Shown in pieces: positions 4,556-6,868 of a DNA stretch of 64,000 nucleotides. This DNA is from Devosia ureilytica (GTDB lineage Bacteria; Pseudomonadota; Alphaproteobacteria; Rhizobiales; Devosiaceae), in the NCBI RefSeq assembly GCF_024273195.1, contig NZ_JAMZCU010000001.1, positions 310,001 to 374,000 of the forward strand. The letters are read 5' to 3'. The notes beneath the pieces are model-generated. The model saw only the letters and a list, made by a program, of their open reading frames with translations, was not told the DNA's origin and searched no databases. Position 1 is the stretch's first letter, and the number at the start of each line of letters is the position of its first letter. Position numbers and translations under genes: made by a program.

Positions 4556-4927
4556 ATGCCCAAGAGTGTAATGATCGTGGAAGACAACGAGCTCAACATG
4601 AAGCTCTTCAACGATCTGCTGGAATCGCGGGGATATAATGTCATCCAGACCCGTAGTGGAATGGAAGCGCTGGATCTGGCCAGGGCGCATATGCCCGACC
4701 TGATCCTGATGGACATTCAACTGCCCGAAGTGTCGGGGCTGGTGGTGACCAAGTGGCTCAAGGATGACGAGCAACTGGCGCATATTCCAGTTGTTGCTGT
4801 CACCGCTTTCGCCATGAAGGGGGACGAGGAGCGCATCCTGCAGGGTGGGTGCGAGGGTTATATTTCCAAGCCCATCTCGGTGTCTCACTTTCTGGAAACC
4901 ATTGCACAATACATTGGGCCTGCCTGA
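4556..4927 (+). CDS. divK: single-domain response regulator DivK
   Basis: A 123-residue receiver-only protein. The acidic pair is Glu9-Asp10, the phospho-acceptor is Asp53 in [10 protein letters not shown], and the switch residues are Thr (AVTAFAMKG) and Lys (YISKPIS). The segment [16 protein letters not shown] and the [20 protein letters not shown]-terminus are close to Caulobacter DivK as I remember it. DivK is phosphorylated by DivJ/PleC-type kinases and controls CtrA through DivL and CckA, setting polarity and cell-cycle progression. It is followed 136 bases later by pleD, as in Caulobacter and rhizobia. A short GAGG precedes the ATG. No effector domain is present, as expected. Confidence 0.95.
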
Positions 4928-5063
4928 GGGGCGGCGCGTGCGCGCGCCGCTACAGCAGGGCTGACACTGGCGCGTCGTTTGCCAGGAGCCGAAGAGTTTT
5001 GTTCGCGTGGTCCGCCGGGGGTGTCGTCCCTGCGCATTGCGCCTGAGTATCCGGGGTAGTGTT

Positions 5064-6434
5064 GTGACCGCTCGCGTTCTGATCGTCGATGACATTCCAA
5101 CCAATGTTCGCCTGCTCGAAGCGCGTTTGACCGCGGAATATTACGAGGTAGTGACGGCCAGCTCCGGGGCGCAGGCGCTGGAAATCTGCCAGACCCAGGA
5201 TGTCGATATCGTCCTGCTCGACGTGATGATGCCGGAAATGGACGGGTTCGAGGTTTGCCGGCGGCTCAAGGCCAATTCCAAGACCCATCATTTGCCCGTG
5301 CTGATGATCACGGCGCTGGACCAGACTTCGGACCGGGTGCAGGGACTGGATGCAGGCGCCGACGATTTCCTCAGCAAGCCGGTGGACGACACGCAGCTAA
5401 TGGCGCGCGTAAAGAGCCTGGTGCGCCTGAAGTCGCTGACCGATGAATTGCGGGCCCGGGCGCTGACGGGGCAGCAGATCGCCATCGAAGACGCGCTGCG
5501 GGCGATGGACAGCATTTCGGCCAGTGGCGGTTCAATCCTGATCATTGATACCGACCAACGCCATGCCGAGCGCATCAAGGGCTATTTGAGCGCGGAACAC
5601 CGGGTCGACATCCTCACCGAGCCGGCCGAGGCCGTGTTCCAGGTGACGGGGGCCAGCTATGAGCTGGCACTGGTGAGCATGGGGCTTGACGGATTCGATC
5701 CGCTCCGGGTGTGCTCGCAAATGAGGACCGTGGATCATTCGCGCAATCTGCCAATCATCCTGATGGCGGATGCCGCCGACAAGCCGCGCGTGGTGCGGGC
5801 GCTGGACCTTGGCGTCAATGACTTTATCAGCCGGCCGGTGGAGCGCAATGAACTGATGGCGCGGGTACGCACCCAGATTCGCCGACACCGCTATGCCATG
5901 GAACTGCGCGAAAGCGTCAACAACACCATGGCGCTGGCGGTTACGGACGAGCTCACCGGGCTCTACAATCGGCGCTATTTCGACCGGCACCTCAATGTGA
6001 TGCTGAGTAAGGCGCAGGAGCAGGATCGCGACATGGCGCTGATGATCATCGACATGGATCACTTCAAGGCGGTCAATGATAATCATGGCCACGATATCGG
6101 CGACGCGGTGCTGCGCGAGTTTTCGGCGCGGCTGAAGCGCAACATCCGGGGCGTGGACCTGGCCTGCCGGTTCGGCGGCGAGGAGTTCGTGGTGCTAATG
6201 CCCGACACAGACATCACCCAGGCCGAGGCGGTTGCAGAGCGGGTGCGCCAATCGATGGCCGAGAAGAGCTTTGAGGTTGGAGCCGCCCGACCGTTGTCGG
6301 TGACGGTCTCGGTAGGGGTGTCGATCCGGGAGGGTCAGGTCGATACGCCCGAGAGCATGATCAAGCGGGCCGATGTGGCGCTCTATCGGGCCAAGCGCGA
6401 AGGTCGGAATCGCGTCATCTTTGACGCCGCCTGA
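5064..6434 (+). CDS. pleD: response regulator / diguanylate cyclase PleD
   Basis: 456 residues from a GTG start: receiver 1 (residues 1-120, acceptor Asp53 in VLLDVMMPEMDG), receiver 2 (about 150-280) and GGDEF domain (about 300-456). Receiver 2 has Ser where the acceptor Asp would be (LALVSMGLDG), so it is a pseudo-receiver used for dimerisation, as in Caulobacter PleD. The GGDEF domain keeps the active site RFGGEEF and the allosteric inhibition site RxxD (RGVD) five residues before GGEEF. It should therefore make c-di-GMP when phosphorylated and be feedback-inhibited. An upstream in-frame ATG at 5007 would add 19 unrelated residues; the GTG start gives the normal V-T-A-R-V-L-I-V-D-D beginning. 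Probably co-transcribed with divK. Confidence 0.95.
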   Translation: MTARVLIVDDIPTNVRLLEARLTAEYYEVVTASSGAQALEICQTQDVDIVLLDVMMPEMDGFEVCRRLKANSKTHHLPVLMITALDQTSDRVQGLDAGADDFLSKPVDDTQLMARVKSLVRLKSLTDELRARALTGQQIAIEDALRAMDSISASGGSILIIDTDQRHAERIKGYLSAEHRVDILTEPAEAVFQVTGASYELALVSMGLDGFDPLRVCSQMRTVDHSRNLPIILMADAADKPRVVRALDLGVNDFISRPVERNELMARVRTQIRRHRYAMELRESVNNTMALAVTDELTGLYNRRYFDRHLNVMLSKAQEQDRDMALMIIDMDHFKAVNDNHGHDIGDAVLREFSARLKRNIRGVDLACRFGGEEFVVLMPDTDITQAEAVAERVRQSMAEKSFEVGAARPLSVTVSVGVSIREGQVDTPESMIKRADVALYRAKREGRNRVIFDAA

Positions 6435-6834
6435 GCGGTTTTGCGTAAAAACCCGGCTATTAGGGTTATTTGTTATAATTAACAAATGGTTGAGCGCGTC
6501 GAGTCGCTGGATTCACTTGGCCTTTTTACGGGTTGGGACTAGGGTCCTTTCAGACGGCCTTGGGATATATCCCAATGGTCATCGGGTCCCTACGGCCCAT
6601 CTCAGGTCCGCCGCAACTCCTGAGTTCCCGTAGGGCGGTTGGTCCGGACGCGGACAGAGTGGCCTCTTCGACATGCCGCTCCGGACCAGCCACTCTCCTC
6701 ACCTGGGATAGTTCTGCTTAGTCACCTGTGGACGCAGTGACGCCCCATTCCTTATGCATGGGCCTCGGGCCATGAATGAGGAGTGGGGACGGCGAACGTC
6801 CGTTCTGCATCTCTGCCTCAAGTGAACGTAAGCC
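6435..6834. other. gene-free, hairpin-rich intergenic region between pleD and rpmG
   Basis: No coding sequence that I can support. Inverted repeats seen: a perfect 16-base palindrome at 6560-6575; CCCTACGG/CCGTAGGG at 6588-6595 and 6628-6635 enclosing CTCAGG/CCTGAG at 6601-6606 and 6619-6624; a 13-pair stem (one bulge) at 6640-6653 with 6676-6688; AGAGTGGC/GCCACTCT at 6656-6663 and 6689-6696, which would form a pseudoknot with the previous stem; GTCAC/GTGAC at 6721-6725 and 6737-6741; and a long imperfect hairpin at 6743-6787. It lacks recognisable tmRNA, RNase P, SRP or 6S landmarks. It could be a structured RNA, a cluster of REP-like repeats, or the pleD 3' end. Confidence 0.6.
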
Positions 6835-6868
6835 AAAACAAAACCCCCACAATCGCTTGCGGGGGTTT
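6835..6868 (-). terminator. Rho-independent terminator of rpmG
   Basis: An AAACCCCC/GGGGGTTT stem of eight pairs (6841-6848 with 6861-6868) with a 12-base loop. On the reverse strand it is followed by TGTTTTGG, a T-rich tract. It lies about 27 bases after the rpmG stop codon in the direction of transcription. Confidence 0.85.

Follow-up and report, generated by a model that had tools for sequence, protein, structure and literature searches.

Between the convergent genes pleD and rpmG of Devosia ureilytica lies a gap dense in inverted repeats, which raises the question of whether these hairpins belong to a structured RNA, new or already known, or to repetitive DNA. We analysed this gap within a window of 64,000 nucleotides, the whole stretch of DNA considered here (Table 1). 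The preliminary description of the locus had named an undescribed structured RNA and a stack of REP-like repeats as its two candidates, had added a pseudoknot, and had proposed an Rfam search and a search for covarying pairs. Its inverted repeats were present where it had placed them, among them 6588-6595/6628-6635, 6632-6648/6680-6696, 6656-6663/6689-6696 and 6560-6567/6568-6575. Pfam likewise bore out the convergent flanks, with GGDEF and Response_reg domains on one side and Ribosomal_L33 on the other; the true start of pleD may lie downstream of 5007. We take the open reading frame ahead of pleD to be divK-like from its own sequence and its position.

Table 1. Features of the ecpR1 locus in the coordinates of the window.
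Feature	Position	Strand	Basis or remarks
divK-like response regulator	4556..4927	+	ORF; context
pleD	5007..6434	+	PF00990 6.1e-50, PF00072 4.7e-48 (two receiver stretches and GGDEF)
Conserved block ATTAGGGTTATTTGTTATAATTAAC upstream of the ecpR1 promoter	6459..6483	+	37/37 Devosia, up to 3 substitutions
Likely sigma-70-type promoter	6516..6545	+	-35 CTTGGC 6516-6521, -10 TAGGGT 6540-6545
Predicted 5' leader	6552..6587	+	distance from -10 box; small hairpin 6560-6575
EcpR1 sRNA core	6586..6696	+	RF02500 match and covariation
SL1	6588..6635	+	outer stem 6588-6595/6628-6635, inner stem 6601-6606/6619-6624
SL1 target-binding loop UCCGCCGCAACU	6607-6618	+	alignment, folding
SL2	6637..6691	+	variable covarying stem 6637-6648/6680-6691
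SL2 conserved loop element GAGUGGCCUCUUCG	6657-6670	+	alignment
Proposed pseudoknot complementarity	6656-6663/6689-6696	+	exact in window; relatives commonly share GUGG/CCAC core only
Hairpin downstream of EcpR1	6743..6788	+	folding
Terminator of rpmG	6841..6868	.	terminator scan reports minus strand only
rpmG, ribosomal protein L33	6895..7077	-	PF00471 6.6e-16

Identity and distribution of the RNA

An Rfam scan of the whole window at curated thresholds returned a sole match, RF02500 (Atu_C6/EcpR1), which the gap matched over the full length of the model (positions 1-113 of 113; 6586-6696 on the plus strand) with 79.8 bits, where the gathering score is 60. Two other families, rnk_pseudo and mir-4716, matched weakly, far under their own gathering scores, and were dismissed. 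Folding of 6540-6830 on the plus strand was better than in shuffled sequences (z = -4.50; 0/200 shuffles equally good), with a weaker result for the minus strand of the same stretch (z = -2.08; 5/200), and the core at 6586-6696 gave z = -5.88 on the plus strand and -3.21 on the minus strand. Two open reading frames cross the gap (6373-6633, 86 codons; 6533-6721, 62 codons), in the face of which the covarying stems described below argue for an RNA.

We conclude, with a probability of about 0.88, that the gap is the ecpR1 gene of this Devosia sp., orthologous to EcpR1 of Sinorhizobium meliloti and including the proposed expression and control of gcrA. The suggestion of a structured RNA was thus upheld, by the strong covariation of SL1 and SL2, and the word "undescribed" was not: the RNA is that of RF02500/EcpR1, characterised in S. 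meliloti in 2015 as the small RNA with which the order restrains cell-cycle genes under stress (PMC4414408), and named earlier sra33 (PMC2245857) and SmelC291 (PMC3927594), names repeated in the review PMC7143759. The gene is an unexceptional orthologue of an RNA already on record and strikes one candidate "new RNA" from the list; the modest new comparative evidence concerns the target of EcpR1, its occurrence beyond the order and its conserved SL2 loop.

EcpR1 has been described as a stress- and ppGpp-induced transcript with a dominant form of 101 nt. The gap sits downstream of divK-pleD and adjoins rpmG, which is the published place of ecpR1 (PMC4414408), and the Devosia gene resembles its S. 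meliloti counterpart (also SmelC291, sra33 and smrC10) in this location, in its SL1/SL2 architecture, in the GC-rich SL1 loop UCCGCCGCA and in the complement of that loop in the gcrA leader. It differs from it in the loop letters AACU for AUCU. EcpR1 of Methylosinus sporium 5, found by Rfam, also adjoins rpmG and has two stem-loops (PMC12403871); its transcription unit was mapped by sequencing, whereas that of Devosia ecpR1 is predicted from the DNA. A literature search, outside the scope of which most subscription papers fell, found no paper on EcpR1 in connection with Devosia, a pseudoknot or Parvibaculum.

REP elements are intergenic palindromes between convergent genes, and several hairpins within 290 bases would suit an array of such elements. 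The region was not found a second time in its own genome, where searches with its two flanks returned only 14-19-base matches at E above 1 and the palindrome's own reverse match. Because no second copy of the searched parts was found, the gap is not REP-like; Devosia ecpR1 differs from REP elements as a single-copy, conserved orthologue that occupies the same locus across genera, and we give the repeat reading of the preliminary description practically no credence.

At E<=0.001, RF02500 was detected in 51/61 relatives, 48 of which passed the cut-off, and in 203/297 genomes of the order, of which 165 did so; in both surveys the control genomes gave 0/14. The exact 62-base SL2 stretch occurred in nine public genome stretches, all of them Devosia and one a metagenome-assembled genome. 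Simple motifs detected both the upstream pleD and the convergent rpmG in 43 of 55 long stretches. A loosened rpmG motif was found in 46/55 long and 40/56 short stretches, and a stricter one matched just 7/54.

Among 241 genomes sampled from the class, a model built from 95 EcpR1 sequences had matches in 8, two of these in the order. Five clear homologues with the SL1 loop (stretches L207-L210 and L212) were seen outside the order as the survey draws it, G337, G451 and G532 from one family and G404 and G497 from another. In L207, from G404, pleD-like and rpmG motifs flank EcpR1 in the usual arrangement, while the match in G529 was weak (E = 8e-4) and had no SL1 loop. We regard the homologues in these five genomes as minor news.

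Covariation of the stem-loops and the proposed pseudoknot

In a plain MAFFT alignment of 95 sequences, SL1 and SL2 formed standard pairs in 93.9% of 2464 cells; slid versions of the same pairing gave 33-54%. Both sides had changed at 17/26 pairs (228 cells), a result matched by 0/500 shuffles. When compared with columns simulated independently along the tree, 20/26 pairs were associated at p<=0.01 in a 99-row alignment, which leans towards SL1 and SL2 because it was fitted to them by construction. The share paired, a measure with little power for conserved pairs, exceeded the tree-aware null at p<=0.05 for 9/26. The search for covarying pairs proposed at the outset thus found that the stems of SL1 and SL2 covary.

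Of 119 initial stretches, seven were dropped for want of the SL1 motif even with 3 substitutions allowed, and L001 was skipped because it duplicates the window. The 95-sequence alignment (A1) comprises 95 of the 98 distinct cores, omitting L054, L059 and L075, and since the seven stretches are absent from it, its invariant columns are partly a product of selection. The 99-row set includes the seven and omits L053, L058 and L071. GCCGCA at 6610-6615 of the SL1 loop was identical in 99/99 aligned sequences, and the GC-rich letters at 6607-6615 are predicted to be unpaired. Two Devosia sequences, L044 and L045, have an SL1 loop altered to GGGAAUGCCGCA in an otherwise typical-looking EcpR1, and these are omitted from the set of 37 Devosia sequences used for the flanking regions.

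The preliminary description had also noted that AGAGTGGC at 6656-6663 is complementary to 6689-6696, and had read this as an H-type pseudoknot. The complement of eight bases is indeed exact in the window; its conservation as a fold of eight pairs is poorly supported. In the 95-sequence alignment, which was not fitted to the pseudoknot, the core pairs GUGG/CCAC form in 81, 81, 88 and 95 of 95 sequences (uncorrected for relatedness), but 42, 29 and 47 of the 95, respectively, cannot form the three outer pairs. With any register allowed, the loop and the 3' end share a run of at least 5 pairs in 82/99 sequences, against 34% with shuffled loop letters, and the mean run is 6.2 against 4.3 (both uncorrected for relatedness). 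Raw column shuffles, equally uncorrected, were exceeded in cells paired, double-change cells and covariation score. Under the tree-aware null, two of the eight pairs showed association (p=0.003 and p=0.021), yet none formed more often than expected (lowest p 0.228; 0/8 at p<=0.05).

Substitutions at 6689 bear on the same point. An A stands there in 18/99 sequences, and its SL2 partner is U in 18/18, restoring the pair; 14 of the 18 keep the loop C, which breaks the pseudoknot pair, so that the loop partner follows in at most four. Both CC of the 3'-arm core are also held by SL2. A clade of four (L003, L060, L069 and L074) has changed both the loop and the 3' arm, and a shifted register would restore its pairing with U opposite A. 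The geometry of a pseudoknot would be strained, as no linker would separate the 13-pair stem from the second strand. The word "pseudoknot" is absent from the main text of PMC4414408. We therefore rejected the eight-pair pseudoknot as a conserved element on pair counts, tree-aware simulation and joint letters. Most likely the complement is an accidental match between the loop and the 3' arm of SL2, each of them conserved. Pairing of the loop with the 3' end is improbable, be it in an H-type pseudoknot or in another fold that competes with the base of SL2, although the widespread shorter complement raises its odds somewhat.

The SL2 loop is nonetheless highly conserved within an otherwise variable stem-loop (G6662 and U6665 in 99/99, C6666 in 98/99). 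Its letters at 6657-6670 read GAGUGGCCUC(C/U)UCG, and the common form contains CCUCCU, complementary to AGGAGG. A second binding site at GGCCUC(C/U)UCG, for the ribosome-binding sites of mRNAs or for a protein, might explain this conservation. The near-invariance of the three positions, the complementarity read from the sequence and the loop's general failure to track its pseudoknot partner would all suit such a site, but the Devosia form is CCUCUU, and in PMC4414408 the SL2 motif is called less conserved and the SL1 loop was found essential. We hold this second site as a tentative explanation, somewhat less probable than its absence.

gcrA and dnaA as candidate targets of the SL1 loop

In S. 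meliloti, gcrA is a proven target of EcpR1, its pairing with SL1 having been tested by experiment, and repression of dnaA is proven too (PMC4414408). We searched 31 Devosia genomes for each gene, fetched 30 stretches for each and anchored 29 for each; the anchors of L140 (dnaA), L187 (gcrA) and, in other genera, L225 and L240 were not located. The loop used was that of the window for every Devosia genome and a consensus loop for other genera.

An 11-nt complement of the SL1 loop, TG(C/T)GGCGGACC, was present in the gcrA leader of 29/29 anchored Devosia, exact in 27, including the window's own genome (L163), and with one mismatch in 2. The site lies 107-113 bases before the GWTDERVE codon, which would put it about 66 bases before the likely start codon. 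The predicted duplex between the loop and gcrA had a mean z of -2.4 over the 29 Devosia. The best duplex fell on the leader site in 15/29, at the start of the coding region in 13/29 and further in in 1/29; with 14/29 thus away from the leader site, the mean scores more than that site. Nor is the 11-mer rare, as the genome has 11 occurrences, ecpR1 itself included, and 7 of the reversed control. Conservation extends to the leader sequence on either side, so that the site could have other causes.

A possible second gcrA site was seen at the start of the coding region in those 13 (L162, L165-L169, L172, L174, L177, L181 and L183-L185). In the genomes of L044 and L045, with the loop GGGAAUGCCGCA, the gcrA sites (L183 and L184) retain the usual letters, and the pairing there is therefore shorter.

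Beyond Devosia, and with G-U pairs counted, 8/17 EcpR1-bearing genomes of other genera had a gcrA complement of 10 nt or longer, 7 of the 8 lying 115-142 nt before the anchor codon. Among genomes without detected EcpR1 the figure was 2/11 (p=0.042, with no correction for relatedness), and one of these two matches sits at the usual position, -130.

For dnaA, the mean duplex z was -0.09 over 29 Devosia, and 0/29 carried the 11-mer even when one mismatch was allowed. As the 11-mer test is modelled on gcrA it is unfair to dnaA, for which the duplex energies are the fairer test. The dnaA stretch ran from 300 bases before to 90 after the anchor codon, and with the leader extent and start codon uncertain a site could lie outside it. 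Devosia thus differs from S. meliloti in having no evident dnaA site, and repression of dnaA is not evident from these sequences.

We propose that ecpR1 would be transcribed from about 6552, from a sigma-70-type promoter, under stress or starvation, and that the transcript would be trimmed or terminated downstream of SL2. SL1 would then pair with the 11-nt complement in the gcrA mRNA leader, which would lower GcrA and slow the cell cycle. The comparative evidence that the EcpR1-gcrA link is kept in Devosia adds to the S. meliloti experiments (PMC4414408). Should this link prove true, regulating GcrA through a stress RNA would be an old feature of the order, and the dnaA branch may be lineage-specific.

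Sequences upstream and downstream of ecpR1

A loose -35/-10 pattern preceded EcpR1 in 35/37 Devosia, with a spacing of 17 in 25 and of 18 in 10, and the same pattern arose in 9.9% of letter-shuffled upstream regions. A generic promoter scan reported none, and the promoter letters differ from those of S. meliloti. Judged from these boxes, transcription would start near 6552. The extent of 6540-6830 first given for the structured region needs two corrections: its 5' edge, 6540-6545, belongs to the probable promoter as the -10 box, and the hairpin at 6743-6788 stands apart. The leader stretch with the hairpin at 6560-6575 folded barely above chance (z = -1.59).

Between pleD and the promoter, the partly dyad-symmetric block at 6459-6483 reads (A/G)TTAGGGTTANNNGTTATAATTAAC and is a possible regulator site. 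With up to 3 mismatches allowed it has one copy in its own genome, and for this reason no regulon was found for it as a regulon site.

A GATTC at 6510-6514, a GANTC methylation site, stands beside the -35 box in 7/37 Devosia, the window's subclade. GANTC methylation is linked with GcrA. By its position, the site could possibly let GcrA feed back on ecpR1, though confinement to one clade means that it could be chance. More speculatively, EcpR1 may be older than the order and carry two loop sites: SL1, which in Devosia would serve gcrA but not dnaA, and an SL2 element, in many sequences the anti-Shine-Dalgarno CCUCCU, serving as an unrecognised second seed or protein site and perhaps switched by pairing with the 3' arm, with the GANTC of the subclade allowing GcrA to act back on its own repressor; we think this combination rather unlikely as a whole.

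Downstream, the gap in the window's subclade is longer than in S. meliloti and has one additional hairpin ahead of the terminator. This hairpin, at 6743-6788 within the stretch 6697-6834, seems confined to close relatives, and a marker sequence neighbouring it was found in 6/37 Devosia. The terminator-like hairpin at 6841-6868 has a comparable GC hairpin, flanked by runs of A and T, in 27/37, and this terminator is probably also the last one for ecpR1.

A dyad, GCTAACAGACTGTTAGC, was seen 3' of EcpR1 in 7/37 Devosia with up to 2 substitutions (L010, L011, L018, L020, L022, L033 and L046). With up to 1 mismatch it was not found in the window's own genome, and it was dispersed in 17/31 Devosia genomes, at up to 24 strand hits per genome, in which a palindromic site can count twice, against 0-1 for the control.
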